Assembly: GCF_034424625.1 (NCBI RefSeq)
Contig: NZ_CP139976.1
Coordinates: forward strand, 1,674,001 to 1,738,000
Direction: 5' to 3'
Origin: Janthinobacterium lividum
GTDB taxonomy: Bacteria > Pseudomonadota > Gammaproteobacteria > Burkholderiales > Burkholderiaceae_D
Length of the DNA stretch: 64,000 nucleotides
Positions 24,136 to 41,720 of the stretch are shown piece after piece. Below the pieces are notes generated by a model. It was not told the origin of the DNA. It saw only the letters and a program-made list of their open reading frames with translations, and searched no databases. The translations under genes were made by a program, and so were the position numbers. How positions within the stretch are numbered: position 1 is the first letter of the stretch; each line of letters opens with the position of its first letter.

Positions 24136-24138
24136 GCC

Positions 24139-25116: not shown

Positions 25117-25249
25117 CATCGCGCATGGCAGGAATCCCCGCCATGCTGTCCGGAAAGCGCGGCAGCCAGCACCCCCGCTGTGCCGGGCGTAAATCTATAC
25201 TTTTCCTGCTGGCGCGCCACTTCGGCCGTGCCCTTGAGGAAAGTCAAAC

Positions 25250-28117: not shown

Positions 28118-28148
28118 CGCCTTCTCCTTGTCTCCAGTGCGTGCAACC

Positions 28149-28179
28149 ACGATGGCGCCTGACGTAACGTCAGGGTCAA
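28149..28179 (-). promoter_or_regulatory. MerR-type promoter/operator of the TipAS regulator
   Basis: On the minus strand a -35 TTGACC (28179-28174) and a -10-like CATCGT (28154-28149) are separated by 19 bases, the overlong spacer used by MerR activators. The spacer holds most of a perfect palindrome at 28158-28174 (CCTGACGT-A-ACGTCAGG). The transcript would start about 25 bases before ATG 28117. Confidence 0.8.
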
Positions 28180-28224
28180 GCAGAAATGTAGCAGAGGAAC
28201 TGAAAAAGCCGGTAAAAGAATCCG

Positions 28225-28253
28225 TTGACCTTCATTTTTTTGTACGGTATATT
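28225..28253 (+). promoter_or_regulatory. upstream promoter P1 of the sugar-acid locus
   Basis: -35 TTGACC at 28225-28230, 17-base spacer, -10 TATATT at 28248-28253. The spacer contains TTTGTACG (28239-28246), repeated in P2. The leader to ATG 28454 would be about 195 bases and contains GAACG-GTG-CGTTC at 28281-28293. Confidence 0.6.
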
Positions 28254-28385
28254 TATAAAACCGAACGACGACTGCGGCATGAACGGTGCGTTCGAGCCAC
28301 ATGGAATGACGAATGGATCGTTGTGCGGCGCAGCAAGAAGCGCCGTTGGCAGGGCTGGAAAGACAATCCGCACAGACGGATTTTT

Positions 28386-28415
28386 TTCACAGTTGGTTTG
28401 TACGTTAAATATAAT
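28386..28415 (+). promoter_or_regulatory. proximal promoter P2 of the sugar-acid locus
   Basis: -35 TTCACA at 28386-28391, 18-base spacer, consensus -10 TATAAT at 28410-28415. The octamer TTTGTACG sits in the spacer (28397-28404), the same octamer as in P1; a good candidate for a repressor half-site. A GAGAGGG ribosome site at 28441-28447 leads to ATG 28454. Confidence 0.65.
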
Positions 28416-28453
28416 ATGCCACCGGCAAGATCCGGGCGGCGAGAGGGACGACC

Positions 28454-29467
28454 ATGATGAAAAGTATCGTTTGCGATACGCCCGGCAGTTTGCGCATGGA
28501 GCAGCGCCCCGTGCCCGTGCCCGGCGAGGGCGAAGTGCTGCTGCGCATACGCCGCGTTGGCATCTGCGGCACCGACATGCATATCTTCCGCGGCACCCAG
28601 CCTTTCCTCAGCTACCCGCGCGTGATGGGGCATGAACTGTCCGGCCATATCGACAGCGCGCCAGCCGGCTCGCGCCTGGCCGTGGGTGACCAGGTCTACG
28701 TGATGCCCTACCTGTCGTGCGGCAGCTGCGTGGCCTGCCGCCAGGGCAAGACCAACTGCTGCACCCGCATCGAAGTGCTGGGAGTGCACCGCGACGGCGG
28801 CATGACCGAATACCTGGCGCTGCCAGAGCGCTTTGTCTTCAAGACGGAGGGCATCTCGCTCGACGACGCGGCCATGATCGAATTTCTCGCCATCGGCGCG
28901 CACGCCGTCAAGCGCGGCGCGGTCGATGCCGGCAAGCGCGTGCTGGTAGTGGGCGCCGGCCCGATCGGCATGGCCGTGATGCTGTTCGCATCGTTGAAGG
29001 GCGCCGACGTGACGGTGCTCGATGGCCGCGCCGACCGTCTGCAGTTCTGCCGCGACGCGCTGGGCATCGCCCGCACGGTGGCGCTGGGCGAGGGCGACAA
29101 GGAGCAGCTGCTGGACGCCACCGGCGGCGAATTTTTCGACGTGGTGTTTGACGCCACCGGCAATATCGCCGCCATGGAGCGGGGCCTGGACTTCGTCGCC
29201 CATGGCGGGGCCTATGTGCTGGTGTCCATCGTGCGCGACCGCCTGTCCTTTTCCGACCCTGAATTCCACAAGCGCGAAACGACCTTGCTGGGCAGCCGCA
29301 ACGCCACCGTCGACGATTTCGAGGAAGTGGTGGCGGCCATGAAGGCGGGCAAGGTACCCACCGCGCTGCTCAATACCCACCGCACCACGCTCGACGAATT
29401 TACCGGCGTGCTCGATCGCTGGATGCAGCCGGAAGCGGGCGTCATCAAGGCCATCGTCGAGGTCTGA
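28454..29467 (+). CDS. zinc-dependent L-galactonate 5-dehydrogenase-like enzyme
   Basis: A 337-residue medium-chain dehydrogenase. Catalytic zinc site in VGICGTDMH with GHE at about residue 59; four structural-zinc cysteines in YLSCGSCVACRQGKTNCC; NAD-binding VVGAGPIG about 169-176. The segments SYPRVMGHE, EVLGVHRDGG and FSDPEFHKRETTLLGSRNAT closely match E. coli LgoD (YjjN), which oxidises L-galactonate to D-tagaturonate. First gene of the locus; the next gene follows by one base. An alternative ATG is one codon downstream. Confidence 0.82.
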   Translation: MMKSIVCDTPGSLRMEQRPVPVPGEGEVLLRIRRVGICGTDMHIFRGTQPFLSYPRVMGHELSGHIDSAPAGSRLAVGDQVYVMPYLSCGSCVACRQGKTNCCTRIEVLGVHRDGGMTEYLALPERFVFKTEGISLDDAAMIEFLAIGAHAVKRGAVDAGKRVLVVGAGPIGMAVMLFASLKGADVTVLDGRADRLQFCRDALGIARTVALGEGDKEQLLDATGGEFFDVVFDATGNIAAMERGLDFVAHGGAYVLVSIVRDRLSFSDPEFHKRETTLLGSRNATVDDFEEVVAAMKAGKVPTALLNTHRTTLDEFTGVLDRWMQPEAGVIKAIVEV

Positions 29468-29468
29468 G

Positions 29469-30605
29469 ATGAGCGACATCAACCCGATACTTCAATTTGG
29501 CACCAGCCGCTTCCTGCAGGCGCACGCCGACCTGTTCGTCAGCGAAGCGGCCAAGACAGGCGAGGCGCTGGGCAATATCACCATCGTACAGACCACGCAC
29601 AGCGCGCAGGGCGCGGCGAGGGTGGCGGCGTTTCGCCGCAGCGACGGCTACCCCGTGCGCATCCGCGGCTGGCAGGACGGCGCGCAAGTCGATGAAGAGC
29701 GCCGTGCCGACGCCGTCACGCAGGCGTGGCAAGCCGGCAGCGACTGGCGGCAGGTGCGCGATGCGGCCGTGGCCGCGCGCGTGATCATCTCGAATACGGG
29801 CGACACGGGCTACCAGCTCGATGGCGCCGACCACGCGGGCATGCTCGACGGCGCGGCCGTTCCCGCCAGCTTTCCCGCCAAGCTGCTGGTGCTGCTGCAC
29901 GGGCGCTTCCTGGCCGGCGCCGCGCCCATCTCGATTTTTCCGTGCGAACTGGTGGCCGACAACGGCCATGTACTGCGCCAGGTGATCGTGACATTGGCGC
30001 GGCAGTGGGGTTGCGCTGCCGCGTTCATCGGCTACCTGGAAACGGGCTGCCTGTGGATCAATTCCCTGGTCGACCGCATCGTTTCCGAACCGATCGAACC
30101 GATAGGCGCGGTGGCCGAGCCCTATGCCCTGTGGGCCATCGAGGCGCAGGAAGGCATGCTGCTGCCGTGCCGCCACCCGCAAGTGGTGGTGACGGGCAGC
30201 CTGCGCGAATATGAACAGCGCAAGCTGTTTTTGCTCAACCTGGGCCACACCTATCTGGCGCAGCTGTGGATGGAGCGGGGCAGCCCGGCCGGCATGACGG
30301 TGCGCGAGGCGATGGACGACGGCGCCATGCGCGCCGCGCTGGAAGCGGTATGGCACGAGGAAGTGCTGCCCGTGTTTGCCGCCATGGGGGCGCAGCACGG
30401 TGACGCCGCGCTGGCCTACGTGGCGCAGGTCAGGGAGCGCTTCGGCAATCCCTTCCTCGCACACCGCCTGGCCGACATCGCCCAGCACCACGCCGGCAAG
30501 ATCGCGCGCCGCATGGCGCCCGTGGCATCGCTGGCGCGGCAGCTCTGTCCCTCCCTGGCGCAGCCGCGCCTGCGCGCCATGCTGGCGCCGGGAGCGCTGC
30601 CATGA
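29469..30605 (+). CDS. mannitol dehydrogenase family (tagaturonate/fructuronate reductase-like) protein
   Basis: A 378-residue member of the long-chain mannitol dehydrogenase/UxaB/UxuB family: N-terminal Rossmann part starting ILQFGTSRFLQAHADLF, the FPCELVADNG segment in the middle, and the C-terminal catalytic stretch starting RKLFLLNLGHTYLAQL with conserved Lys/Asn/His. It is about 100 residues shorter than E. coli UxaB. Since it follows an LgoD-like gene and precedes a UxaA-type dehydratase, reduction of D-tagaturonate to D-altronate is the best inference. Confidence 0.78.
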   Translation: MSDINPILQFGTSRFLQAHADLFVSEAAKTGEALGNITIVQTTHSAQGAARVAAFRRSDGYPVRIRGWQDGAQVDEERRADAVTQAWQAGSDWRQVRDAAVAARVIISNTGDTGYQLDGADHAGMLDGAAVPASFPAKLLVLLHGRFLAGAAPISIFPCELVADNGHVLRQVIVTLARQWGCAAAFIGYLETGCLWINSLVDRIVSEPIEPIGAVAEPYALWAIEAQEGMLLPCRHPQVVVTGSLREYEQRKLFLLNLGHTYLAQLWMERGSPAGMTVREAMDDGAMRAALEAVWHEEVLPVFAAMGAQHGDAALAYVAQVRERFGNPFLAHRLADIAQHHAGKIARRMAPVASLARQLCPSLAQPRLRAMLAPGALP

Positions 30606-30719
30606 ACGCCCCGGTCAACGCAGTTGTTTCTTTTTCGGCATGCCGATCCAATCCGATATCGACTAAAATGGCCCACTCATCCACTTTCCCCTTCGCTGGC
30701 ATAGCGCGTTCATTCATCC

Positions 30720-31637
30720 ATGTCCAAACCCGCCACCGTCTTCAAGCGCAGTACCAATCTGCTGTTGCAATTTCTCGCCGAGAATGCCGCAGTGGGCGAG
30801 ATGCTGCCGACGGAGCAGTTCCTGACCACCATCTGCCAGGGCAGCCGCACGGCGATCCGCAGCGCGATCGCCTACCTGTCGACGCGGCGGCTGATCGCCA
30901 GCCCGGCGGACCGGCGCTTGCTGAGGAAGCCCATACCGGGCGACTACTTCGATATCTCCGAATTGCAGTCGGGGGCGGAGCGCATCCAGCAAGTGCTGAT
31001 GGAACGCGTGTACCAGCGCGACATGCCGCCCGGCGCGGAATTCTCGGAAGCGGAGCTGGCGCGCGAGGCGGGCGCCAGTACCGTCAGCGTGCGCGAATTC
31101 CTGATCGGCTTTTCGCGCTTCGGCCTGATCGAAAAGAAACCGCGCGGTGGCTGGCGCCTGTGCGCGTTCGACCGCTCGTTTGCCACCGAACTGGCGGATA
31201 TGCGGCGCATGTTCGAGATGGCGGCCGTGGAGCAGTTTGCGCACCTGCCGCACGGCGATCCGGCGTATGCGGAACTGGCGCGGCTGATCAAGCAGCACGA
31301 GAAGCTGGCGGCCAGGATCGACACGCGCCACAACGCGTTTCCGGCGCTGGACCGCGAGTTCCACACCTTTCTGATCGGCTTGCTGAACAACCGCTTCGCG
31401 CAGGGCTTCTACGATATCGTCTCGTTTGTCTTCCACTACCACTACCAGTGGGACAAGGGCGAGGAAAAAGGCCGCAACCAGTACGCGGTGCAGGAGCACC
31501 TGGCGATCCTGCGCGCCTTGGCGGAGCACGACATACCGAAGGCGCTCGAGGGCATGCGCTCGCACCTGGATTCCTCGCGCCGCACCATGCTGTCCTCAAT
31601 CGGCACGCGCGAAAAACTGAGCCAGCCGGACGCCTAG
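30720..31637 (+). CDS. GntR family regulator with two winged helices and FCD domain
   Basis: A 305-residue regulator, longer than the 230-250 residues usual for FadR-type GntR proteins. The N-terminal part (about 8-70: LLLQFLAENAAVGEMLPTEQ, SRTAIRSAIAYLSTRRLI) reads as one GntR-like winged helix; a second follows at about 78-145 (ERIQQVLMERVYQRDMPPG, ASTVSVREFLIGFSRFGLI). The FCD ligand domain with its metal-binding His residues occupies about 150-285. It is inside the catabolic locus, so it is its presumed repressor. No clear ribosome site is seen before ATG 30720. Confidence 0.83.
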   Translation: MSKPATVFKRSTNLLLQFLAENAAVGEMLPTEQFLTTICQGSRTAIRSAIAYLSTRRLIASPADRRLLRKPIPGDYFDISELQSGAERIQQVLMERVYQRDMPPGAEFSEAELAREAGASTVSVREFLIGFSRFGLIEKKPRGGWRLCAFDRSFATELADMRRMFEMAAVEQFAHLPHGDPAYAELARLIKQHEKLAARIDTRHNAFPALDREFHTFLIGLLNNRFAQGFYDIVSFVFHYHYQWDKGEEKGRNQYAVQEHLAILRALAEHDIPKALEGMRSHLDSSRRTMLSSIGTREKLSQPDA

Positions 31638-31662
31638 CCATCCTTGCCGGGGAGGGTGCGCC

Positions 31663-31998
31663 ATGAGCCTCGCTTCCCAGCCTGCCAGCCTGCTGCTGAT
31701 GTCGCCCGAGGATAACTGCCTGATCGCCAGGACGGCATTGGCCTGCGGCGACGTCGTCGCCATCGATGGCTTGCCCGTCACCCTGGCGCAAGACATCCAC
31801 ATCGGCCACAAGGTGGCGCGCCGCGCGCTGGCCGTGGGCGACAAGGTGCTGCGCTACGGCGCCCTGATCGGCAGCATCACGGCCCCCGTCGCCATCGGTG
31901 AGCATATCCACACCCACAACCTGGCAAGCGATTACATCCCCACGTTTACCCTGGGCCAGGACGGCCACCATTTCCTGGACAAGGACGACCAAGCATGA
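31663..31998 (+). CDS. UxaA-type hydro-lyase small subunit (SAF domain)
   Basis: A 111-residue SAF-domain protein corresponding to the N-terminal segment of altronate/galactarate dehydratases: ARTALACGDVVAIDG, HKVARRALAVGDKVLRYGALIG and the hallmark GEHIHTHNL at about 85-93. GGGAGG precedes ATG 31663. Its TGA overlaps the ATG of the large subunit (ATGA). In E. coli UxaA both parts are in one chain; here they are split. Confidence 0.88.
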   Translation: MSLASQPASLLLMSPEDNCLIARTALACGDVVAIDGLPVTLAQDIHIGHKVARRALAVGDKVLRYGALIGSITAPVAIGEHIHTHNLASDYIPTFTLGQDGHHFLDKDDQA

Positions 31999-33218
31999 AC
32001 GCTCCCGTAACGACACCGGCCCTGTCGGGCTATCTGCGCGCCGATGGCCGCAAGGGCATCCGCAATATCGTGGTGGTGGCCTATATGGTCGAATGCGCGC
32101 ACCACGTGGCGCGCCTGATGGTCAACGCCTTTCCCGGCCAGCCCGTGCACCTGATCGGCTTTACGGGCTGCTTCCCCAATGAATACGCGGACCAGGTGAT
32201 GCGCCGCCTGCTGACGCATCCGAACGTGGGCGCCGTGCTGCTGGTGTCCCTGGGCTGCGAAGGCTTCAACAAATATGGCCTCTCCAGCGCCGTGGCCGAC
32301 AGCGACCGCCCCGTGCATACGATTACCATCCAGGAAAACAGCGGCACGCGCCCCAGCGTGAGCAGCGGCGTCGAGTGGATCAGCTGGGCCCTCGAGCACC
32401 TGGCGCAGCAGGAGCGCGTGCCGATGGGCATCGATGAACTGGTGGTGGCCACCATCTGCGGCGGCTCCGACAGCACCAGCGGCATCAGCGCCAACCCGGC
32501 CGTCGGCGTGGCGTTCGACACGCTGATCGCGGCCGGCAGCCCCTGCATCTTCGAGGAGACGGGTGAACTGGTCGGCTGCGAATACCACATGCAGCGGCGC
32601 GCCGTCAGCCCGGACCTGGGCAACGCCATCGTCGACACCGTGGCCAAGGCGGCCCGCTACTACACCATCATGGGCCATGGCAGCTTCTCGCCGGGGAATG
32701 CCGACGGCGGCCTCACCACGCAGGAAGAAAAGTCGCTGGGCGCCTACGCCAAGAGCGGTTCCTCGCCCATCGTCGGCATTCTGAAACCGGGCGATCAGCC
32801 GGCCGGCGGCGGCCTGTACCTGCTCGACGTGGTGCCGGACGGCGAGCCGCGCTTCGGTTTCCCTAACGTGTCGGACAACGCGGAAATCGTCGAACTCATT
32901 TCCTGCGGCGCCCACATCACCTTGTTCACGACGGGCCGCGGCTCCGTGGTGGGCTCGGCGATTTCGCCCGTCATCAAGGTGTGCGCCAATCCGCAGACCT
33001 TCGAGCGCCTGGCCGACGACATGGATATCAACGCCGGCAAGATCCTCACGGGCGAGGCCACGCTGGAAGAAGTGGGTGCGGAGATCGTCGCCGCCGTGCT
33101 GAACGTGGCCAATGGAGCACTGAGCCGCTCGGAAGACCTGGGCCACCAGGAATTCGTGCTGACCTATAAACAATTCGAGGCGGTGGGGCCAGGCTGCTTC
33201 CCGCTGCGCGCAGCATGA
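31995..33218 (+). CDS. UxaA-type hydro-lyase large (catalytic) subunit
   Basis: A 407-residue protein of the UxaA/GarD C-terminal family. Seen: GYLRADGRKGIRNIVVVAYMVECAHHVA start, a conserved CEGFN (residues about 91-95), TICGGSDSTSGISANPAVG, and the C-terminal TGRGSVVGSAISPVIKVCANPQTF. Cysteines at these motifs probably ligate the iron needed for dehydration. With the small subunit the total length (518) equals UxaA. Best substrate is D-altronate (to KDG); L-fuconate or D-arabinonate is also possible in this context. It overlaps both neighbours by 4 bases. Confidence 0.85.
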   Translation: MNAPVTTPALSGYLRADGRKGIRNIVVVAYMVECAHHVARLMVNAFPGQPVHLIGFTGCFPNEYADQVMRRLLTHPNVGAVLLVSLGCEGFNKYGLSSAVADSDRPVHTITIQENSGTRPSVSSGVEWISWALEHLAQQERVPMGIDELVVATICGGSDSTSGISANPAVGVAFDTLIAAGSPCIFEETGELVGCEYHMQRRAVSPDLGNAIVDTVAKAARYYTIMGHGSFSPGNADGGLTTQEEKSLGAYAKSGSSPIVGILKPGDQPAGGGLYLLDVVPDGEPRFGFPNVSDNAEIVELISCGAHITLFTTGRGSVVGSAISPVIKVCANPQTFERLADDMDINAGKILTGEATLEEVGAEIVAAVLNVANGALSRSEDLGHQEFVLTYKQFEAVGPGCFPLRAA

Positions 33219-34258
33219 GGGCCACGGCGATGGATGTCATGGATACCACGCGCCGCCGTACCCTGCCGCGCGGCGGCCTCTCGCTGCCCTGCATCGGCAT
33301 GGGTTGCGCGCCGCTGGGCGGCCTGTACCAGCCGGTCAGCGACGCGCAGGCGCGCGCCACCCTCGATGGCGCCTGGGATGCCGGCGTGCGTTTCTTCGAC
33401 ACGGCGCCGTTCTACGGCTACACCCGGTCCGAACACCGTCTCGGCGCGGCGCTGCGCGGGCGGCCTCGCGATCATTTTGTTGTCAGCACCAAGGTGGGAC
33501 GGCTGATGCGGCCCGACGCCTCCGTGCGCCCAGGCGATGACGGTTTTGCCGCGCCGCTGCCGTTCCGCCCCCATTACGACTACACGTATGACGGCGTGCT
33601 GCGTTCGCACGACGACAGCCTGCAGCGGCTGGGGCTCGATCGCATCGACATCCTGTTCGTGCACGATATCGGCAAGGCCACGCATGGCGAACGCGATCAG
33701 CACTACTGGCGCCAGCTGACGGATGGCGGCGGCTTTCGCGCCCTCGATGAACTGCGCGCCAGCGGCCAGGTGAAAGCCGTGGGCCTCGGTGTCAACGAAT
33801 GCGAGATCGTGCTGCGCGCGATGGTGGAATTCGACCTCGATTGCACCCTGCTGGCCGGCCGCTACACCTTGCTGGAACAGGCCTCGCTGTCGCCATTGCT
33901 GGACGTCTGCGTGGAGCGCGGCAACGCCATCGTGATCGGCGGCCCGTTCAACTCGGGCGTGCTGGCCGGGAACGGCAAATTCAATTACGCCGATGCGCCG
34001 GCCGCGATACTCAAGAGCGTGGCGCGCCTGGACGCCGTCTGCCGTGACTTTGGCGTGCCTTTGCAAGCTGCCGCCCTGCAGTTTCCGCTCGCCCATCCCG
34101 CCGTCGCTTCCTGCATCCCGGGCGGCCAGGACCTGGCGCAGCTGCGGCAAAATCTGGACTGGTTCGCCACGCCGCTGCCTGACGCCCTGTGGCTGGCGCT
34201 GCGGGACGCGGACTTGCTCGATGCGCGCGCGCCGCTGCCTGCGGGAGTGGCCGCATGA
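33215..34258 (+). CDS. aldo/keto reductase, L-fucose/L-galactose dehydrogenase-like
   Basis: A 347-residue aldo/keto reductase. Catalytic tetrad visible: Asp and Tyr in FFDTAPFYGYT, Lys in VVSTKVGRL, His in ILFVHDIG. The family includes bacterial D-threo-aldose (L-fucose) 1-dehydrogenase and plant L-galactose dehydrogenase, which oxidise the anomeric carbon to a lactone. ATGA overlaps with both neighbours and the following lactonase gene support that reaction as the first step of this pathway. ATG 33230 is an alternative start. Confidence 0.85.
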   Translation: MRATAMDVMDTTRRRTLPRGGLSLPCIGMGCAPLGGLYQPVSDAQARATLDGAWDAGVRFFDTAPFYGYTRSEHRLGAALRGRPRDHFVVSTKVGRLMRPDASVRPGDDGFAAPLPFRPHYDYTYDGVLRSHDDSLQRLGLDRIDILFVHDIGKATHGERDQHYWRQLTDGGGFRALDELRASGQVKAVGLGVNECEIVLRAMVEFDLDCTLLAGRYTLLEQASLSPLLDVCVERGNAIVIGGPFNSGVLAGNGKFNYADAPAAILKSVARLDAVCRDFGVPLQAAALQFPLAHPAVASCIPGGQDLAQLRQNLDWFATPLPDALWLALRDADLLDARAPLPAGVAA

Positions 34259-35097
34259 TGCGCATCGACGCCCACCAGCACTTCTGGCAGCTGGCCGCGC
34301 GTGCCGGCAGCTGGCCGCCGCCGTCCCTGGCCGCCATCCACCGCGATTTTGCGCCCGCCGACCTGGCGCCCCTGCTGGCTGCGCACGGCATCGCCGGCAC
34401 AGTGCTGGTGCAGTCGCTGCCGTCCGAAGACGATACGCACTGGCTGCTGGCGCTCTCCGAAGAAAGCGGCTTTATCCGCGCCGTCGTGGGCTGGACGGAG
34501 CTGCGGGCGCTTGACGCGCCGGCCAATATCGCCCGCCTGGCGTCGCATGGCAAGCTCAAAGGCTTGCGTCCCATGCTGCAGGATCTCGATGACGATGCAT
34601 GGATCGCCGATCCCGCGCTGGCGCCAGCTTTGAACGCCATGGTGGAACACGGTTTGCGGCTGGACGCGCTGGTGCTGCCGCGCCACCTGCCCGCACTGCG
34701 GCAATGCGCGCACGACTATCCGCGGCTTCCCATCGTGATCGACCATGCGGCCAAGCCGCCGATAGCCGATGCCGCCTTCGGCACCTGGCGCGAAGACATG
34801 GCGCAGCTGGCCGCGCTGCCGAACGTGCATTGCAAGCTGTCCGGGCTGGTGACGGAAGCGCGGCCCGGCTGGTGCGTGGACGATTTGCATCCCTATGCCG
34901 CACATGTGCTGCAAGTATTCGGCCCCCGGCGCGTGATTTGGGGCAGCGACTGGCCCGTGGTGGACCTGGCCGGCGGCTATGCGGCGTGGCTGGCCGCCAG
35001 CGAAGCGCTGCTGGCGCATCTGGGGCAAGCGGACAGGAACGATATCTTCGGCCTCAACGCACAGCGCTTTTACGGTATCAACGAGGAAACGCCATGA
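34255..35097 (+). CDS. COG3618 amidohydrolase, sugar lactonase (L-fuconolactonase-like)
   Basis: A 280-residue TIM-barrel amidohydrolase. It begins MMRIDAHQHFWQL (HxH metal site), and has the RPMLQDLDDDAWI loop, the beta-5/6 HAAKPP motif and the C-terminal WGSDWPV with the catalytic Asp. This pattern is diagnostic of the COG3618 group, which includes L-fucono-1,5-lactonase and L-rhamnono-lactonase. It hydrolyses the lactone made by the upstream aldo/keto reductase. Coupled by ATGA to both neighbours; ATG 34258 is a near-identical alternative start. Confidence 0.87.
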   Translation: MMRIDAHQHFWQLAARAGSWPPPSLAAIHRDFAPADLAPLLAAHGIAGTVLVQSLPSEDDTHWLLALSEESGFIRAVVGWTELRALDAPANIARLASHGKLKGLRPMLQDLDDDAWIADPALAPALNAMVEHGLRLDALVLPRHLPALRQCAHDYPRLPIVIDHAAKPPIADAAFGTWREDMAQLAALPNVHCKLSGLVTEARPGWCVDDLHPYAAHVLQVFGPRRVIWGSDWPVVDLAGGYAAWLAASEALLAHLGQADRNDIFGLNAQRFYGINEETP

Positions 35098-35423
35098 AAA
35101 GAATGGGCATGCTCATCGGCATCGCGCCGGAGCGTATCGCCGAATACAAAACCCTGCACGCCGTTGTCTGGCCGCAGGTGCTGGCCAAACTGGCAGCCGC
35201 GCATGTCAGCAATTATTCGATCTTCCTGCGCCAGCCGGAAAACCTGCTGTTCGGTTACTGGGAATACCACGGCGAGGACTTCGAAGCCGACATGGCGGCC
35301 ATCGCCGACGACCCCGAAACGCAGCGCTGGTGGACCTTTTGCGCCCCGTGCCAGCAGCCGCTGGCCTCGCGCGCCGAAGGCGAGCACTGGGCGATGATGG
35401 AACAGGTTTTTCATATGGATTAG
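35094..35423 (+). CDS. RhaM/FucU-like sugar mutarotase
   Basis: A 109-residue protein of the L-rhamnose mutarotase (RhaM) dimeric alpha/beta-barrel family: MLIGIAPERIAEYKTLHAVVWPQVL, YSIFLRQPENLLFGYWEYHG and EQVFHMD at the end, with His22 and Trp-rich active-site residues. It interconverts anomers of a 6-deoxy-L-sugar so that the dehydrogenase gets its preferred form. It overlaps the lactonase stop by 4 bases. Symbol withheld since the sugar (rhamnose, fucose, galactose) is not certain. Confidence 0.85.
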   Translation: MKRMGMLIGIAPERIAEYKTLHAVVWPQVLAKLAAAHVSNYSIFLRQPENLLFGYWEYHGEDFEADMAAIADDPETQRWWTFCAPCQQPLASRAEGEHWAMMEQVFHMD

Positions 35424-35444
35424 TCGTAGACCCCAAAGCGAAGA

Positions 35445-35500
35445 CCGGGGTCAGACCCTGAGGGGCTGCCCCCGGCAGTTCAGGTGTTGGGGTAATAAAT
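35445..35500. repeat. GGGGTC-type dispersed repeat, copy 2
   Basis: CCGGGGTCAGACCCTGAGGGG-type sequence at 35445-35465, differing at two positions from 11482-11502, followed by GGGGCTGCCCCCGGCAG. It interrupts the operon in the 96-base gap between the mutarotase and the SDR genes, where it could attenuate or stabilise the transcript. Confidence 0.75.
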
Positions 35501-35519
35501 ATAAAACAAAGGAGACAAC

Positions 35520-36275
35520 ATGACCGCCAGACTACAAGGCAAAATCGCCCTGCTCACCGCCGCCGGCCAGGGCATCGGCCGCGCCACGGCCGAAGCGTTC
35601 GTGCGCGAAGGCGCCACCGTGATCGCCACCGATATCAACCAGTCCCAGCTCGACGCGCTGAAGGAGGCGACTGGTTGCGCCATCCGCCGGCTCGACGTGA
35701 CCGATGGCGCGGCGATCACCGCGCTGGCCGACGAGATCGGCTCCGTCGATATCCTGTTCAACTGCGCCGGCTTCGTCGACGGCGGCACCATCCTCGACTG
35801 CGACGATGCGGCCTGGGACCGGTCCTTCGACATCAACGCCCGCTCCATGTACCGGCTGATGCGCGCCGTGCTGCCCGGCATGCTGGCCAGGGGCGCCGGC
35901 TCCATCGTCAATATGTCGTCCGTGGCGTCCAGCGTGAAGGGCGCGCCGAACCGCTTTATCTACGGTACCTCGAAGGCGGCCGTGGTGGGCATGACGAAAT
36001 CGGTGGCGGCGGACTTTGTCACGCGCGGCATCCGCTGCAATGCGATCTGCCCCGGCACCATCGAGTCGCCTTCGCTGAAGGAACGCATTGCCGCGCAGGC
36101 GGTAGCGACGGGCGTGAGCATCGATGAAGTGCAAGCCGCTTTCGTGGCACGCCAGCCGATGGGAAGAGTGGGCAGGGCAGAGGAAATCGCCGCCCTGGCC
36201 GTCTACCTGGCTTCCGATGAATCCGCCTTTACCACCGGCATGGTCCATGTGATCGACGGCGGCTGGTCAAATTAA
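35520..36275 (+). CDS. SDR, 2-keto-3-deoxy-L-fuconate dehydrogenase-like
   Basis: A 251-residue classical short-chain dehydrogenase: cofactor motif TAAGQGIG at 13-20, NCAG, catalytic Ser in NMSSVAS and YGTSK (YxxxK), with the family's LARLQGKIALLTAAGQGIG start. The sequence and length match 2-keto-3-deoxy-L-fuconate dehydrogenases (the DHRS6-like group), which oxidise C4 to give 2,4-diketo-3-deoxy-L-fuconate. AAGGAG precedes ATG 35520. It is followed by the FAH-family hydrolase that would cleave that product. Confidence 0.85.
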   Translation: MTARLQGKIALLTAAGQGIGRATAEAFVREGATVIATDINQSQLDALKEATGCAIRRLDVTDGAAITALADEIGSVDILFNCAGFVDGGTILDCDDAAWDRSFDINARSMYRLMRAVLPGMLARGAGSIVNMSSVASSVKGAPNRFIYGTSKAAVVGMTKSVAADFVTRGIRCNAICPGTIESPSLKERIAAQAVATGVSIDEVQAAFVARQPMGRVGRAEEIAALAVYLASDESAFTTGMVHVIDGGWSN

Positions 36276-36296
36276 TCACTACAACGAGAGAACCCC

Positions 36297-37163
36297 ATGA
36301 AACTGATGCGTTATGGCGCCAAGGGCGCTGAAAAACCTGCCTTGATCGATGCTGACGGCGCCGTGCGCGACCTCTCCGGCGTGCTGTCGGATATCACGGG
36401 CGCGACCCTGGGCAAGGATGGCCTGGCGACCCTGGCCGCCATCGATATCGCCAGCCTGCCGGTGGTGGACCATCCCGGCCGCATCGCGCCGCCGTGGAAA
36501 GGCGTGGGCAAATTTTTGTGCGTGGGCTTGAACTATGCCGACCATGCTGCCGAATCGGGCATGGCCGTGCCGTTTGAACCGGTGCTGTTCATGAAAGCCA
36601 CCAGCGCCATCATCGGCGCCAACGATGCCGTGGTGATGCCGCAGGACTCGAAGAAAAGCGACTGGGAAGTGGAACTGGGCGTGGTGATCGGCACCACCGC
36701 CCGCTATGTGAGCGAAGCGGATGCGCTGTCGCACGTGGCCGGCTACTGCGTCGTCAATGACTTGTCCGAACGCGAGTATCAACTGGAGCGTGGCGGCCAG
36801 TGGGACAAGGGCAAGGGCTGCGATACCTTCGGCCCGATCGGCCCCTGGCTGGTGACGGCCGACGAAGTGGCGGACCCGCAAAACCTGGGCCTGTGGCTGG
36901 AAGTCAACGGCAAGCGTGTGCAGGACGGCAATACCAGGACGATGGTCTTCGGCGTGGCCAATCTGGTCAGCTATATCAGCCGCTTCATCACCCTGTACCC
37001 GGGCGACATCATCAGCACCGGCACGCCACCGGGCGTGGGCATGGGCCAGAAACCGTCGGCCGTGTACCTGAAGCCGGGCGACACCATGCGTCTGGGGATC
37101 AACGGCCTGGGGGAACAGCGGCAGACCGTGCATGCCTGGAATCCGCAGCTGATCGACGGTTAA
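36297..37163 (+). CDS. FAH-family 2,4-diketo-3-deoxy-L-fuconate hydrolase-like
   Basis: A 288-residue fumarylacetoacetate-hydrolase-fold protein. Metal-binding acidic residues lie in SDWEVELGVVIG and VVNDLSEREYQ; the substrate loop GKGCDTFGPIGPWL and the TGTPPGVGMGQKP motif are present. Members in L-fucose and pentose diketo pathways cleave acylpyruvates to pyruvate plus L-lactate or glycolate. Coming 21 bases after the SDR, it completes that route. An alternative ATG is 3 codons in. Confidence 0.87.
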   Translation: MKLMRYGAKGAEKPALIDADGAVRDLSGVLSDITGATLGKDGLATLAAIDIASLPVVDHPGRIAPPWKGVGKFLCVGLNYADHAAESGMAVPFEPVLFMKATSAIIGANDAVVMPQDSKKSDWEVELGVVIGTTARYVSEADALSHVAGYCVVNDLSEREYQLERGGQWDKGKGCDTFGPIGPWLVTADEVADPQNLGLWLEVNGKRVQDGNTRTMVFGVANLVSYISRFITLYPGDIISTGTPPGVGMGQKPSAVYLKPGDTMRLGINGLGEQRQTVHAWNPQLIDG

Positions 37164-37244
37164 TGAAGTAGCAGACCGGCGTGCCGCCAAGGTGCTCAGA
37201 CATCGGCGCGCCGGCCTATGGCAGTGGAGTGGAGGAGACACACC

Positions 37245-38777
37245 ATGAATGAATCCGAAGAGATACTGGCGCTGAACAAGGTCAGCAAGCGCTTTCCCGG
37301 CGTGCTGGCGCTCGACAACGTCAGTTTCAGCCTGCGCAAGGGCGAGGCGCATGCGCTGTGCGGCGAAAACGGCGCCGGCAAGTCCACCCTGATGAAGGTG
37401 ATGAGCGGCGTGTACCAGGCTGACGAGGGGGAACTGGTCTACAAGGGCAAGGTATGCAGTTTTGCCTGCAGCGTGGATGCGGAGGCGGCAGGCATCGCCA
37501 TCATCCACCAGGAACTGAATTTGATCCCGCACCTGAGCGTGGCGGAGAATATTTTCCTCGCGCGCGAACCGGTGCGCGGCATTTTTATCGACCGCAAAAA
37601 AATGCGTGCCGACGCGCAGGCGCTTCTGGACCGTTTGAAGCTGCGCATCGACCCGCGCCAGCTGGTCAAGAACCTGTCGTGCGCGCAGCAGCAGATGGTG
37701 GAAATCGCCAAGGCCCTGTCGCTCAATACGGAAGTGCTGATCATGGACGAACCCACGTCGTCGCTGACGGAAAGCGAGACGGGCCAGCTGTTCGACATCA
37801 TCAATGAACTCAAGCGCAATGGCGTGAGCGTGGTCTACATCTCGCACCGCCTGGAAGAGATGCAGCACATCATCGACAGGGTGACGGTGCTGCGCGACGG
37901 GAAATTCGTCTGCACCGACGATTTTGCCGCCACCACCCTGGATGCCATCGTGGCCAAGATGGTGGGCCGCACCCTCGATGAAAAATTTCCCGATCGCGTC
38001 TCGACGCCGACCGCTGACGTGCTGCTGCGCGTGACCGATTTGCACCGCAAGGATGTCTTCGGCCCGCTGAGCTTTGATTTGCGGCGCGGCGAGATCCTCG
38101 GCTTTTCCGGCCTGATGGGCGCGGGACGCACGGAAGTGGCGCGCGCCATCTTCGGCGCCGATCCCCTCACCGGCGGCGCGATCCACCTGGGCGACATGGC
38201 GGTGACGATCGCCAGCCCCATCGACGCCATCGGACACGGCATCGCCTACCTGTCGGAAGACCGCAAGAGCCACGGCCTGGCGATCCGCATGTCGGTGGCG
38301 GCCAATCTGACCCTGACGAATGTATCGGGGCTGGCGAACCGATTCGGCTTCATCGATTTCGCCAGGGAAGAAGCGGTGGCGCAGCAGTACATCGCGGCGC
38401 TGGGCATCAAGACGCCGACCTCGAAACAGATCGCGCGCAACCTCTCGGGCGGCAACCAGCAAAAGATCGTCATCAGCAAATGGCTGTACCGCGAATCGAA
38501 AATCATCTTCTTCGACGAACCCACGCGCGGCATCGACGTGGGGGCCAAGTTCGCCATCTACCAGCTGCTCGACAAGCTTGCGTCGGAAGGCATCGGCGTG
38601 GTGCTGATCACGTCCGAGCTGCCCGAGATTATGGGCATGACGGACCGGGTGGCCGTGTTCCATGAAGGGCGCATCAGCGGCATCGTCAATACGCGCGAGT
38701 CGTCGCAGGAAGAGATCATGCAACTGGCGTCGGGGCGCGTAGCCAGTCCCGCACCTGGCCAGGCGGCAGCCCATTAA
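37245..38777 (+). CDS. sugar ABC transporter ATPase (RbsA/XylG/AraG type)
   Basis: A 510-residue protein with two ABC modules. First: Walker A GENGAGKSTLMK about 43-54, signature NLSCAQQQMVEIAK (a degenerate LSGGQ), Walker B EVLIMDEPTSSLT. Second: a GLMGAGRTEVAR Walker A-like loop, signature NLSGGNQQK, FFDEPTRGIDVG. That is the usual CUT2 arrangement, where one chain supplies both sites. GGAGGAGA precedes ATG 37245. Works with the permease and binding protein downstream to import a monosaccharide, presumably L-fucose/L-galactose. Confidence 0.94.
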   Translation: MNESEEILALNKVSKRFPGVLALDNVSFSLRKGEAHALCGENGAGKSTLMKVMSGVYQADEGELVYKGKVCSFACSVDAEAAGIAIIHQELNLIPHLSVAENIFLAREPVRGIFIDRKKMRADAQALLDRLKLRIDPRQLVKNLSCAQQQMVEIAKALSLNTEVLIMDEPTSSLTESETGQLFDIINELKRNGVSVVYISHRLEEMQHIIDRVTVLRDGKFVCTDDFAATTLDAIVAKMVGRTLDEKFPDRVSTPTADVLLRVTDLHRKDVFGPLSFDLRRGEILGFSGLMGAGRTEVARAIFGADPLTGGAIHLGDMAVTIASPIDAIGHGIAYLSEDRKSHGLAIRMSVAANLTLTNVSGLANRFGFIDFAREEAVAQQYIAALGIKTPTSKQIARNLSGGNQQKIVISKWLYRESKIIFFDEPTRGIDVGAKFAIYQLLDKLASEGIGVVLITSELPEIMGMTDRVAVFHEGRISGIVNTRESSQEEIMQLASGRVASPAPGQAAAH

Positions 38778-38796
38778 AAACAGAAAGCTTAAAAAA

Positions 38797-39771
38797 ATGA
38801 ATAAAGAACTGATACAAAAATTCGCCGCGCTGGGCAGCCTGTCGCTGTTGCTGCTGGTGTTTTCCCTGACCAGCAACGCCTTTTTCTCCGTCAGCAACGG
38901 CATGAGCGTGGCCTTGCAGGTGACGTCGATCGCCTACCTGGGCATTGCCGCCACCTGCGTCATCATCACGGGCGGCATCGACCTGAGTTCCGGCTCCGTG
39001 CTGGCGCTGGCCGGCGTGGCCGCCGCGCTGCTCGTCAAGAGCGGCGTGCCCGTGCCGGTCGCCATGCTGGGCGGCGTCGTGGTGGGCGCCATGTGCGGCG
39101 CCGTCAACGGCTTTTGCATCACGCAATTGAAACTGCCTCCTTTCATCGCCACCCTGGGCATGATGCTGATCGCCCGTGGCCTGGCGCTGCAGGTGACGGG
39201 CGCGCGCGCCATTTCCGGCCTGGGCGACTCGTTCGGCGAACTGGGCAACGGCGTGCTGTGGCGCATCGAGCGCGACACGGGAGGCACCTTTCCCGAAGTC
39301 GTCTTCCCTGGCATTCCGTATCCGGTGGTGCTGATGGTGGTGATCGCCGTGGCCGTGTCCATCATGCTCAGCCGCACCACCTTTGGCCGGCATATCTATG
39401 CCGTCGGTTCGAATGCGGAAGCGGCGCGCCTGTCTGGCGTGAAGGTGGGGCGCGTGACCCTGCTGGTGTACACCTTGTCCGGCGCCCTGTCGGGCCTGAC
39501 GGGCTGCGTGCTGATGTCGCGCCTGGTGACAGCGCAGCCGAACGAGGGTGTGATGTACGAACTCGATGCGATCGCCAGCGCCGTGATCGGCGGCGCCTCG
39601 CTGATCGGCGGCATCGGCACCATTTCCGGCACCGTCATCGGCTCCTTCGTCATCGGCATCCTGCGCAATGGCTTGAACATGAACGGGGTATCGAGCTTTA
39701 TCCAGCAAATCATTATCGGACTGGTCATCTTGCTGACCGTCTGGATCGATCAGAAGCGCAACCGCGCCTGA
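38797..39771 (+). CDS. sugar ABC transporter permease (RbsC type)
   Basis: A 324-residue inner-membrane protein with about 8-10 hydrophobic helices and CUT2 permease landmarks: ITGGIDLSSGSVLAL, QLKLPPFIATLGMMLIARG, GRHIYAVGSNAEAARLSGV and the EAA-like loop thereafter. It forms the channel with two copies of itself. It starts 19 bases after the ATPase stop, with only a weak ribosome site (AGAAAGC). Confidence 0.94.
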   Translation: MNKELIQKFAALGSLSLLLLVFSLTSNAFFSVSNGMSVALQVTSIAYLGIAATCVIITGGIDLSSGSVLALAGVAAALLVKSGVPVPVAMLGGVVVGAMCGAVNGFCITQLKLPPFIATLGMMLIARGLALQVTGARAISGLGDSFGELGNGVLWRIERDTGGTFPEVVFPGIPYPVVLMVVIAVAVSIMLSRTTFGRHIYAVGSNAEAARLSGVKVGRVTLLVYTLSGALSGLTGCVLMSRLVTAQPNEGVMYELDAIASAVIGGASLIGGIGTISGTVIGSFVIGILRNGLNMNGVSSFIQQIIIGLVILLTVWIDQKRNRA

Positions 39772-39825
39772 GGCAGTGCAGCAACGCAGTCTTACCTATA
39801 AATCTATAATTAAATGAGGACGACA

Positions 39826-40788
39826 ATGAAAACCATCCAAGCCTTCAACACCATCCTGTTCGGTCTGTCGACCGCAGTATTTGCCCTGAGCTCCAGCGCC
39901 GCCTTCGCCGCCCCGGGCGAAATCGCCGTGATCGTCAAGACGACCAATTCCAACTACTGGCAAAACGTCAAGAAGGGCGCCACGGCCAGCGCCGCCGATG
40001 CCAAGGGCTACAGCCTGACCTTCCAGGGTCCGGCCTCGGAATCGGCCATCGCCGACCAGGTCAGCATGGTGGAAAATGCCGTCACGCGCAAAGTGGCCGG
40101 CATCGTGCTGGCCGCGTCCGACCCGGACGCGCTGGTGCCGGCCCTGAAGAAGGCGTGGGAAGCGAAGATTCCCGTGGTGCTGATCGATTCGCTGGTGGCC
40201 GACAGCGGCAAGCGCTATTACCAGTCCTTCCTCTCGACCGACAATGAAGCGGCCGGCGAGCAAAGCGCCAAGGCCCTCATTTCGCAGGTCGGCAAGACGG
40301 GCAAGATCGCCGTGATGTCGTATGTGGCGGGCGCCGGTTCCGAAACGGGCAGGGTGGGCGGCTTCAAGCGCTATATCGAAAAGAACTCGCAGCTGCAGAT
40401 CGTCGGCACGTATTACTCGCAGTCGCAGATGGCCACGGCGCTGAACCAGACGACCGACGTGCTGGCCTCGAATCCGGACTTGAAGGGCATCTTCGGCGCC
40501 AATGAACCGACGGCCGTGGGCATGGGCCGCGCCATCGCGCAGGCGGGCAAGGCCGGCAAGGTGATCGCCGTGGGCTTCGACGGCAATGAAGACCTGAAAA
40601 ACTTCGTCAAGGACGGCACCCTGTATGCGACCGCCGTGCAAGGCTCGTACTCGATGGGCGCGCTGGGCGTGAAAACCCTCGTCAGCCTGATCGAAGGCAA
40701 GAAGGTCGCGCCGTTCGTCAACACGGGCGTGGTGATCGTCACCAAGGCCAATGTCGAACTGCCGGAAGCGAAGAACGTGTTGTACTGA
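39826..40788 (+). CDS. sugar-binding periplasmic protein (RbsB-like)
   Basis: A 320-residue type I periplasmic binding protein. Signal peptide 1-31 (ends SAAFA), then AVIVKTTNSNYWQNVKKGATASA, a hinge region, and GIFGANEPTAVGMGRAIAQAGKAGKV with a late ATAVQGSYSMGALGVKTL. This is the ribose/fucose/arabinose binding clade. TGAGGA precedes ATG 39826. It is the last gene of the locus. No strong hairpin terminator is visible before the convergent LysR gene. Confidence 0.93.
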   Translation: MKTIQAFNTILFGLSTAVFALSSSAAFAAPGEIAVIVKTTNSNYWQNVKKGATASAADAKGYSLTFQGPASESAIADQVSMVENAVTRKVAGIVLAASDPDALVPALKKAWEAKIPVVLIDSLVADSGKRYYQSFLSTDNEAAGEQSAKALISQVGKTGKIAVMSYVAGAGSETGRVGGFKRYIEKNSQLQIVGTYYSQSQMATALNQTTDVLASNPDLKGIFGANEPTAVGMGRAIAQAGKAGKVIAVGFDGNEDLKNFVKDGTLYATAVQGSYSMGALGVKTLVSLIEGKKVAPFVNTGVVIVTKANVELPEAKNVLY

Positions 40789-40808: not shown

Positions 40809-41720
40809 TCAGATCGTCAGGCGCTGGCGCAACTCCTGCAGCAGGGTGCCCGTCTTCGGCGTCAACTGGCGCGCCAGCGGCCATGCCAGATACAACGGCA
40901 GGCCTGGCGTGGCCAGCTGCGGCAGCACGGCGACGATGGCGCCTGACGCCAGGTGTTCTTCCACCAGCCACGTGGCCAGCTGCGCCACGCCCAGGCCCGC
41001 CAGCACGGCGGCGGTGCGCGCCTCGGCGTCGCCCACCGTCATGCGCGGCGCGGCCACGCGGTATTCCAGCTGGCCGCCCTTGTCCTCATCCGGGAACAGC
41101 CACGGCATGGGCGAACCGTCGCCACGGCCATAGGCGATGCAGTCGTGCCGCTCCAGTTCTCCGATGGCGGCGGGCGTGCCGCGTCGCGCCAGGTAGGCGG
41201 GCGCCGCGCACAGGATCAGGCGTTCCGCTCCCAGCTGCATCTGGCCCAGCGCGGCGGGCCAGTGCGATGGCGTGCCGATGCGCACGGCGATATCGATGCG
41301 CTCTTCGAACAGGTCGACGAAGCGGTCGCTGAAGGCGATCGATGGCTGCAGCCCGGGATACTGCGCGCACAGGGCCAGCAGCGCCGGCATGACGCGCAGG
41401 CGGCCGTACGAGGCGGGCACGCCGATGCGCACCTTGCCCGCCAGTTCCGTCGCGTGTTCGGCCAGGATGTCTTCCGCATCGGCCAGTTCCTGCAGCACGC
41501 GCTTGCAGGTGGCGTAGTAGGCGCGGCCCGCCTCGCTCAATTTCAGGCGGCGCGTGCTGCGCTCGAACAGGATCACGCCCAGCCGCTCCTCCAGCCGCGC
41601 CACGCTCTTGCTGACGGCTGAACTGCTCAGGTGCAGGTGCTCGGCCGCCCTCGTAAAGCTGCCAGCATCCGCGGTGGCGAGAAAGGGCGTGATGCCCTTC
41701 AAATGTTCCGATGAAAACAT
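40809..41720 (-). CDS. LysR family transcriptional regulator
   Basis: A 303-residue LysR protein: HTH at about 5-63 (LATADAGSFTRAAEHLHLSSSAVSKSVARLEERLG) and substrate-binding domain from about 90. It is divergent from the PRISE-type reductase gene (101-base gap), which it very likely controls. A TTCAC-N7-GTGAA dyad lies at 41736-41752. Its end converges on the sugar ABC locus. Confidence 0.9.
   Translation of the reverse strand: MFSSEHLKGITPFLATADAGSFTRAAEHLHLSSSAVSKSVARLEERLGVILFERSTRRLKLSEAGRAYYATCKRVLQELADAEDILAEHATELAGKVRIGVPASYGRLRVMPALLALCAQYPGLQPSIAFSDRFVDLFEERIDIAVRIGTPSHWPAALGQMQLGAERLILCAAPAYLARRGTPAAIGELERHDCIAYGRGDGSPMPWLFPDEDKGGQLEYRVAAPRMTVGDAEARTAAVLAGLGVAQLATWLVEEHLASGAIVAVLPQLATPGLPLYLAWPLARQLTPKTGTLLQELRQRLTI

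Follow-up and report, generated by a model that had tools for sequence, protein, structure and literature searches.

A composite Janthinobacterium locus predicted to merge L-galactose and L-fucose catabolism around one split UxaA-type dehydratase

Results

Gene content and control region of the locus

The window, a 64,000-nucleotide stretch of a Janthinobacterium lividum genome, holds a tightly packed set of genes, all on one strand, at positions 28454-40788 (Table 1). A sequence-only reading of this DNA had proposed a composite L-galactose/L-fucose catabolic locus here, and all of the enzymes that it named are present where it placed them, with homology and genomic context in agreement. Four adjacent gene pairs between the SAF-domain subunit and the mutarotase overlap by 4 bp. 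The same genes are found together in other genera, though arranged differently, which argues that the grouping is not due to chance. Relatives of the three importer genes are found in many L-galactose-type loci together with the aldo/keto reductase (AKR) and the LgoD-like/UxaB-like pair (hereafter the C5 pair). When eight locus proteins were compared to NCBIfam, none reached a curated cut-off among the matches listed.

Table 1. Features of the locus, with positions numbered within the window
Feature	Coordinates	Strand	Family or best match
Control region	28216..28453	+	20-bp motif TTTGTACGKTAWATWTAWWA x2 (28239, 28397), overlying promoter-like sequences
Zn-dependent MDR dehydrogenase, LgoD-like; proposed L-galactonate 5-dehydrogenase	28454..29467	+	PF08240/PF00107
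UxaB-like short mannitol-dehydrogenase-family reductase; proposed tagaturonate reductase	29469..30605	+	PF01232/PF08125
GntR/FCD regulator, LgoR-like	30720..31637	+	PF00392 + PF07729
Small (SAF-domain) subunit, split UxaA-type dehydratase	31663..31998	+	PF08666 25.4 bits
Large (GD_AH) subunit; proposed L-fuconate/D-altronate (D-arabinonate) dehydratase	31995..33218	+	PF04295 + PF20629 264.6 bits
Aldo/keto reductase; proposed L-galactose/L-fucose 1-dehydrogenase	33215..34258	+	PF00248
COG3618-type aldonolactonase (L-fucono-/L-galactono-lactone)	34255..35097	+	PF04909 172.6 bits
RhaM-family mutarotase	35094..35423	+	PF05336 110.2 bits
SDR, L-2-keto-3-deoxyfuconate 4-dehydrogenase type 1	35520..36275	+	365 bits to 8y11/8xwk
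FAH-family 2,4-diketo-3-deoxy-acid hydrolase	36297..37163	+	8gsr 366 bits
Sugar ABC importer ATPase	37218..38777	+	two ABC_tran stretches, RbsA/XylG-like
Sugar ABC importer permease	38797..39771	+	PF02653
Sugar ABC importer binding protein	39814..40788	+	PF13407 201.8 bits

The promoter-like sequences of the control region comprise TTGACC-17-TATATT at 28225 and TATAAT ahead of the MDR start. Both motif copies were present in all nine upstream regions from Janthinobacterium, that of the window among them, and in none of the 11 regions from other genera, and we regard the repeats as a putative operator. A genome scan returned these two sites as its only exact matches; as the search pattern had itself been built from them and loose hits were equally frequent in a reversed control (7 vs 7), the scan was discarded as decisive evidence. 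The GntR/FCD protein, a part of the locus absent from the sequence-only reading, is 34% identical to E. coli LgoR over 295 aa and is likely the regulator of the locus. An overlapping 354-aa open reading frame in another frame (30602-31666) was rejected as a gene, having no family and low third-position GC; the gene at this place is that of the GntR protein.

Sugar oxidation and the C5 pair

The five best PDB matches of the AKR are each named L-galactose dehydrogenase (8scc, 111.6 bits). The lactonase scored 207 bits against the L-fucono-1,5-lactonase model NF052480, below its cut-off of 400, and matched 4dlf/4dnm, both deposited as Amidohydrolase 2; the fuconolactonase and mutarotase expected of Route III, the non-phosphorylative L-fucose pathway, are thus represented at family level (PF04909, PF05336). 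Homology and context support the proposal that oxidation is shared between L-galactose and L-fucose. For comparison, Campylobacter jejuni FucX is described as weakly active on L-galactose in an organism that does not grow on this sugar (PMC6946681).

We then placed the AKR and lactonase in quick trees with many open forks (60 and 50 rows, window included, from 64 and 53 hits, after removal of rows below 80% of length, true duplicates and L042). In these trees neither protein of the window belongs to the clade formed by its counterparts in the fucose-type loci L135-L140; support for that clade was starred at 100 for the AKR and was 92 and 88 for the lactonase.

The MDR protein is 43% identical to E. 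coli LgoD over 335 aa, and other MDR models also score, all below cut-off. The best NCBIfam model for its partner is tagaturonate reductase (202.6 bits vs a cut-off of 359), and K252, N257 and H260, which we take to be the catalytic motif, are unchanged in all 13 aligned rows (window included). These similarities and the gene context favor epimerization of L-galactonate at C5 by the pair, as had been suggested.

A single split dehydratase that probably serves two acids

The large subunit belongs to the UxaA/GarD superfamily by virtue of its GD_AH domains and of iron-site cysteines 34, 59, 88 and 155, which are present in 11/11 split and fused rows; by family models, the parts of the split enzyme resemble only galactarate/altronate dehydratase. 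The large subunit is the sole PF20629 protein of the genome (6/6 candidates scored). The enolase-type L-fuconate dehydratase (FucD), already reported as missing from the locus, was not found anywhere in the genome, which encodes two enolase-superfamily proteins: one is a muconate cycloisomerase, and the other, of 389 aa, has 24% identity to a FucD. Because FucD is missing and no second GD_AH protein is encoded, L-fuconate and D-altronate are most likely both dehydrated by the split enzyme, a dual role that had been offered as one option from sequence and that homology and context now support.

A UxaA-family enzyme of Herbaspirillum huttiense is described as active on D-arabinonate and as weakly active on D-altronate (12%), L-fuconate (5.6%) and L-galactonate (2.4%), with an approximately 6,700-fold poorer performance on D-altronate than on D-arabinonate (PMC6336799), so that promiscuity in vitro need not equal physiological use. 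The heteromeric enzyme of Paraburkholderia mimosarum was called an L-fuconate dehydratase from its context (PMC6336799); its subunits are 59% (SAF) and 68% (GD_AH) identical to those of the window. We equated its genes, A19U_RS0100650/655, with our locus L135 by their description in that source. P. mimosarum NBRC 106338 has two loci, two AKRs and two dehydratases where the window has one merged locus: L133 reads ABC-AKR-MDR-UxaB-fused dehydratase, with the fused enzyme adjoining the C5 pair, and L135 reads SAF-GD_AH-AKR-lactonase-SDR-FAH, which is the order of the window minus the mutarotase. The window proteins are 55-76% identical to their counterparts in L133 and 47-71% identical to those in L135.

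To place this arrangement among its relatives, we classified 124 de-duplicated loci using identity thresholds set for this analysis, on stretches of approximately 7-21 kb in which "absent" means absent from the stretch. Repeats (L043, L046, L048, L141, L144 and L145) were left out, and further overlap among genomes is possible. L059 was counted as lacking a split dehydratase, because that gene is found in another stretch from its genome (G794), namely L141. In the family of Acidovorax sp. HMWF029, with four candidates per genome scored, a UxaB-like gene was detected in 28/399 genomes, 19 of which were taken as 20 loci. The C5 pair occurs in 92 of the 124 loci, accompanied in the stretch by a split dehydratase in 19, a fused one in 43 and neither in 30. 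FucD accompanies the fused altronate-type enzyme in 18/43 loci, although three of these calls reach just 53-54% identity to a reference FucD, and neither FucD nor a fused enzyme was detected in any of the 19 split-type stretches. Since all 19 belong to the family of the window, this exclusion may reflect a single event. Moreover, 22 of 40 scanned genomes hold a split-type gene and every one of these has another GD_AH match elsewhere, so the description "only such dehydratase" holds for the genome of the window alone.

This last observation also bears on a reading in which the split enzyme acts on L-fuconate and D-arabinonate only and an unlinked enzyme, for example of the IlvD/EDD type, takes D-altronate. 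Six IlvD/EDD proteins, possible aldonate dehydratases, are encoded elsewhere in the genome, and in P. mimosarum the orthologue sits in the L-fucose-type operon with the fused enzyme in the L-galactose-type locus. We nevertheless consider this reading unlikely, given that the genome of the window has no second GD_AH protein and that split enzyme and C5 pair were never accompanied by a fused enzyme in the stretches surveyed.

A predicted diketo exit and the possible fates of KDG

The SDR is nearest to L-2-keto-3-deoxyfuconate (L-KDF) dehydrogenase and retains, at one constant offset, the counterparts of H. huttiense R148, T183, R192, R214 and W252, thereby including the R148/R192/R214 carboxylate cluster and the tryptophan of the Route III 4-dehydrogenase. 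The FAH protein, of the hydrolase family expected in Route III, is nearest to diketo-deoxyrhamnonate hydrolase, shares the DHxxE motif of 8gsr, and scored 469.8 bits against NF053535, under the curated cut-off of 500. Homology and context agree that these enzymes could provide the anticipated diketo exit for L-fucose.

The H. huttiense L-KDF dehydrogenase (L-KDFDH) is described as preferring L-KDF over D-KDG by 105-fold, KDG being accepted weakly by an enzyme of this type, and as taking L-2-keto-3-deoxygalactonate (L-KDGal) at 1480 per min per mM, compared with 75 for D-KDG (PMC11199699). The latter comparison suits a direct route in which the split enzyme dehydrates L-galactonate to L-KDGal, the SDR and hydrolase yield pyruvate and L-glycerate, and the MDR/UxaB-like pair serves another acid; L-galactonate also has the same configuration as D-arabinonate at C2-C4, and is the weak H. 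huttiense substrate noted above (PMC6336799). Many loci without SDR and FAH genes, however, keep the MDR/UxaB-like pair beside the AKR, lactonase and importer, and the LgoD-like and LgoR-like character of the MDR protein and regulator likewise speaks against this route, which we judge distinctly improbable. Very improbable is an operon for L-galactose only, with L-fucose handled elsewhere and the SDR and hydrolase as a KDG exit alone: the AKR affinities, the AKR and lactonase trees and the LgoR-like regulator would fit, but the SDR carries type-1 L-KDFDH residues, including the tryptophan in contact with the methyl group at C6 of L-KDF, and the SAF-to-FAH order is that of the P. mimosarum fucose-type operon.

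No KDG kinase was found among the genes of the locus, and among relatives with the C5 pair one is linked in 8/43 fused-type and 2/19 split-type loci. A search of the genome with E. coli KdgK gave three weak hits (24-35% identity), yet the conclusion that the genome lacks such a kinase is countered by an unlinked PfkB protein (4.016 Mb; L154/L161), one of these hits. When it was compared with six PfkB proteins encoded beside fused dehydratases, identity was 53-65% for five of them and 34% for the sixth. In view of this resemblance, KDG could depart through the unlinked kinase-like enzyme or, alternatively, through the local SDR and hydrolase.

Discussion

We propose, as the probable reading, that this locus is an operon in which the catabolism of L-galactose and of L-fucose, and probably also of D-arabinose, has been merged. 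The data show the gene identities, the synteny and the absence from this genome of a second GD_AH protein or of FucD; operon status, every substrate assignment and the direction of flux are what we infer. One ABC importer would bring in the sugar, which would undergo mutarotation and oxidation by the AKR, after which the COG3618 enzyme would open the lactone. L-fuconate would pass directly to the split dehydratase, the SDR and the FAH hydrolase to give pyruvate and L-lactate, whereas L-galactonate would first be converted to D-tagaturonate by the LgoD-like enzyme and to D-altronate by the UxaB-like reductase, and then be dehydrated to KDG by the same split enzyme. KDG might then be consumed by the kinase-like enzyme together with a KDPG aldolase encoded at 5.191 Mb; alternatively, the local SDR and hydrolase might turn it into pyruvate and D-glycerate.

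While much of the pathway interpretation of the sequence-only reading is supported, its claim that such a layout was unfamiliar is not. The relatives surveyed include composite loci from Ralstonia, Agrobacterium, Elstera and other Oxalobacteraceae, those of the first two genera carrying two dehydratases.

In Acidovorax avenae (ACAV_RS08155), a pair of dehydrogenases reportedly inverts C5 of L-galactonate to give D-altronate, in a route overlapping L-fucose Route III (Watanabe et al. 2019). ACAV_RS08210 is the A. avenae L-KDFDH (PMC11199699), and the dehydratase of this species is described as a single gene, named L-galactonate dehydratase on unpublished data (PMC6336799), in contrast to the two-subunit, fuconate-type enzyme of the window. 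A composite layout was likewise described in 2017 for Halomonas: in both species studied, genes for L-fucose, L-fuconate and L-galactonate share one locus, with lgoD, uxaA and uxaB (or uxaF) alongside L-fuconate-route genes (COG1028, COG0179), a co-localization on which the authors comment; a TRAP transporter was proposed there for both acids, whereas the window has a sugar ABC importer (PMC5507952). The lguABCDEF genes of Luteolibacter LG18 follow the same course of oxidation, 5-dehydrogenation, reduction and altronate dehydration to KDG, but end in a KDG kinase and aldolase and have no L-fucose branch as described; the authors place most enzymes of this dual L-glucose/L-galactose pathway far from those of E. 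coli (PMC12632266). The E. coli lgo genes lack an AKR, lactonase, SDR and FAH in a 10-kb stretch, while the window has all four. Compared with the known composite loci, that of the window looks to be set apart by its economy, with one split dehydratase apparently in charge of a task that is often divided between two enzymes elsewhere.

A complete funnel, in which the two sugars would depend in vivo on a single set of heteromeric dehydratase, SDR and hydrolase while the C5 pair ensured that L-galactose gives D-glycerate rather than the less usable L-glycerate, is a more doubtful extension that we put forward tentatively. If true, the operon would be an L-galactose locus (importer, AKR, lactonase and C5 pair) fused with a fucose-type dehydratase, SDR and hydrolase, and the fused altronate dehydratase, FucD and a linked KDG kinase would become dispensable. 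The locus suggests that a promiscuous dehydratase could let two sugar pathways compress into one operon, with related genomes displaying the alternatives of separate loci (P. mimosarum) and two-dehydratase composites (Ralstonia, Agrobacterium). The split UxaA-type enzyme may offer a small test case for the way in which a single enzyme comes to act on two substrates.

Organization and surroundings of the locus

The gene set proposed by the sequence-only reading was borne out, as all of the enzymes it named and the importer are present on the forward strand, joined by a GntR/FCD regulator that it had not listed. The source genome comprises 6.76 Mb on two contigs. Within the locus, the genes for the two subunits of the split dehydratase, SAF and GD_AH, overlap by 4 bp. 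Two AT-rich copies of a 20-bp motif precede the locus, each lying over promoter-like sequence; the two-copy arrangement recurs in 9/9 Janthinobacterium upstream regions, and the repeats are a possible operator of the GntR regulator. The flanking MerR/TipAS-type and LysR regulators are retained beside the operon in same-genus loci (L041-L047) and none were found in loci of other genera (L048-L054), so they are probably not operon members. The D-amino-acid dehydrogenase further upstream scores 688 bits against NF009074, above the cut-off of 494.

Coordinates of features in the window, the related loci L050 and L052, and the window's genome (G000)
Feature	Position	Strand
D-amino-acid dehydrogenase, AraC/DJ-1 regulator, M24-family protein	22759-25939	
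MerR/TipAS-type regulator	27083-28150	-
20-bp motif, first copy	28239-28258	
20-bp motif, second copy	28397-28416	
Locus, in order: LgoD-like MDR, short UxaB-like reductase, GntR/FCD regulator, SAF, GD_AH, aldo/keto reductase (AKR), COG3618 lactonase, RhaM-family mutarotase, SDR, FAH hydrolase, three ABC importer genes	28454-40788	+
LysR regulator	40809-41720	-
KdgK	L052:6935-7843	
KdgK remnant	L050:7583-7925	
Unlinked kinase neighborhood (L161)	G000:C1:4010001-4022000	
KDPG-aldolase-family gene	G000, 5.191 Mb	

A probable single dehydratase for two branches

Among 124 de-duplicated loci, 92 carry both the LgoD-like MDR and the UxaB-like reductase; 19 of these have the split dehydratase, 43 a fused, one-protein enzyme and 30 neither within the stretch. 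An enolase-type L-fuconate dehydratase (FucD) adjoins 18/43 fused-type loci versus 0/19 split-type loci, and in no locus did split and fused enzymes occur together within the stretch. The reference FucD, from L038, scores 554 bits to solved L-fuconate dehydratases, although its top structure match (4ip4, 687 bits) bears only a generic name; three of the 18 calls (L072, L079 and L089) share only 53-54% identity with it, and the others displayed at full length at least 72%. Because all 19 split-type loci come from the window's family, the absence of FucD and fused enzymes beside the split one may reflect a single evolutionary event.

The window's genome encodes one GD_AH protein and a search of it found no FucD-like enolase, so both the L-fuconate and the D-altronate branch there most likely rely on the split enzyme. 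We consider it likely that the locus is a merged L-galactose/L-fucose operon whose split dehydratase acts on both acids. An improbable alternative is that the split enzyme dehydrates only L-fuconate and D-arabinonate, leaving D-altronate to an unlinked enzyme. The split-type gene occurs in 22/40 genomes, and each of those 22 has one or more additional GD_AH matches at other sites, which slightly strengthens this alternative, slightly weakens the merged-operon reading, and confines the one-dehydratase interpretation to the window's genome, where the single GD_AH protein argues against a second enzyme.

Relation to the two-locus layout of P. mimosarum

In P. mimosarum NBRC 106338 the genes are spread over two loci, L133 (ABC importer, AKR, MDR, UxaB-like reductase and fused dehydratase) and L135 (SAF, GD_AH, AKR, lactonase, SDR and FAH), and the window's locus looks like their sum minus duplicates. 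In quick trees, neither the AKR nor the lactonase of the merged loci groups within the clades formed by the fucose-type loci L135-L140 (AKR clade 100, starred, with L054 also inside; lactonase clades 92 and 88, unstarred). The dehydratase, by contrast, belongs to the fucose type, at 68% identity to L135 versus ~35% to fused enzymes. Together, these observations suggest, with modest support, a hybrid origin.

Enzyme assignments

The MDR and the GntR/FCD regulator share 43% and 34% identity with E. coli LgoD and LgoR, respectively, the best five solved-structure relatives of the AKR are all named L-galactose dehydrogenase, and the FAH protein resembles L-2,4-diketo-3-deoxyrhamnonate hydrolase. 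For the lactonase, the matching structures are 4dlf/4dnm, whose deposited name is 'Amidohydrolase 2' and which we take to be Burkholderia fuconolactonases. The SDR scores 365 bits to 8y11/8xwk, deposited merely as 'SDR family oxidoreductase'; because all five residues named in PMC11199699 are found in the SDR alignment at one constant offset, we take these structures to be the H. huttiense L-2-keto-3-deoxyfuconate (L-KDF) dehydrogenase of that study. Four cysteines of the large dehydratase subunit are conserved in 11/11 split and fused rows, and PMC6336799 describes them for the superfamily, sulfo-lyase excepted. Since none of the eight locus proteins run reached an NCBIfam cut-off among the rows listed, we infer substrate names from relatives and context.

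Distribution among relatives

The UxaB-like protein is 92-93% identical to those of three named Janthinobacterium loci and 77% to a fourth. Its gene is uncommon, occurring in 7/399 genomes of an order-wide sample, its own included (E <= 1e-40), and in 28/399 from the family of Acidovorax sp. HMWF029 (E <= 1e-60). The split dehydratase (at least 70% identity) occurs in 44/392 genomes of the window's family, its own included, and in 17 of the 40 listed same-genus genomes. In other genera of the family the gene set is present again in shuffled order, a pattern that favors selection acting on the set over inherited synteny. L045 and L051 keep the LgoD-like MDR and split dehydratase, and their MDR-GntR gaps of ~130 and ~260 bp, respectively, leave no UxaB-like gene there. 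Related loci are L053 and the L062-L069 group (Duganella, Rugamonas, Pseudoduganella and Massilia), several with an SDR only ~38-41% identical to the window's; an FMN-dependent dehydrogenase is encoded in L053, and L062 has a permease of the major-facilitator type.

Fate of KDG

No KDG kinase is linked within the window's locus. KdgK lies immediately 3' of the UxaB-like gene in L052 and L062, L050 has a shortened remnant made up of the first and last parts of the gene at the position seen in L052, an apparent loss, and in some other relatives a PfkB enzyme adjoins the fused dehydratase. At thresholds of our own setting, 8/43 fused-type versus 2/19 split-type loci have a linked kinase. PMC11199699 gives the H. 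huttiense L-KDF dehydrogenase 75 per min per mM for D-KDG versus 7900 for L-KDF. An unlinked PfkB protein of the window's genome shares 53-65% identity with five of the six linked kinases it was compared with, and the genome also has the KDPG-aldolase-family gene, adjoined by an IlvD/EDD gene, and a glycerate-2-kinase-type gene (226.7 of 550 bits). Exit through the unlinked kinase or through the local SDR and hydrolase are both possible, and we lean slightly toward the kinase. Its neighborhood, with PfkB, a LacI-type protein, an amino-acid-type ABC importer, a xylose-isomerase-like barrel protein and a Gfo/Idh oxidoreductase, is probably another sugar or sugar-acid operon.

Standing of the locus

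A 2019 Mol Microbiol study (doi 10.1111/mmi.14259) reportedly tied L-galactose to L-fucose Route III. The view that the layout is unfamiliar is not supported: according to PMC5507952, both Halomonas species studied carry L-fucose, L-fuconate and L-galactonate genes in one locus, and the authors commented on this co-localization. PMC6336799 names a heteromeric P. mimosarum L-fuconate dehydratase as well as an L-galactose enzyme from A. avenae, and PMC12632266 describes an L-galactose pathway via the same intermediates, backed by mutants. A genus-inclusive literature search, with most subscription papers outside its coverage, found Janthinobacterium named in no paper among the matches listed. 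The cluster is real, conserved and makes sense; it is a leaner variant of a kind already known. The surprise is modest, and its split dehydratase deserves an assay.
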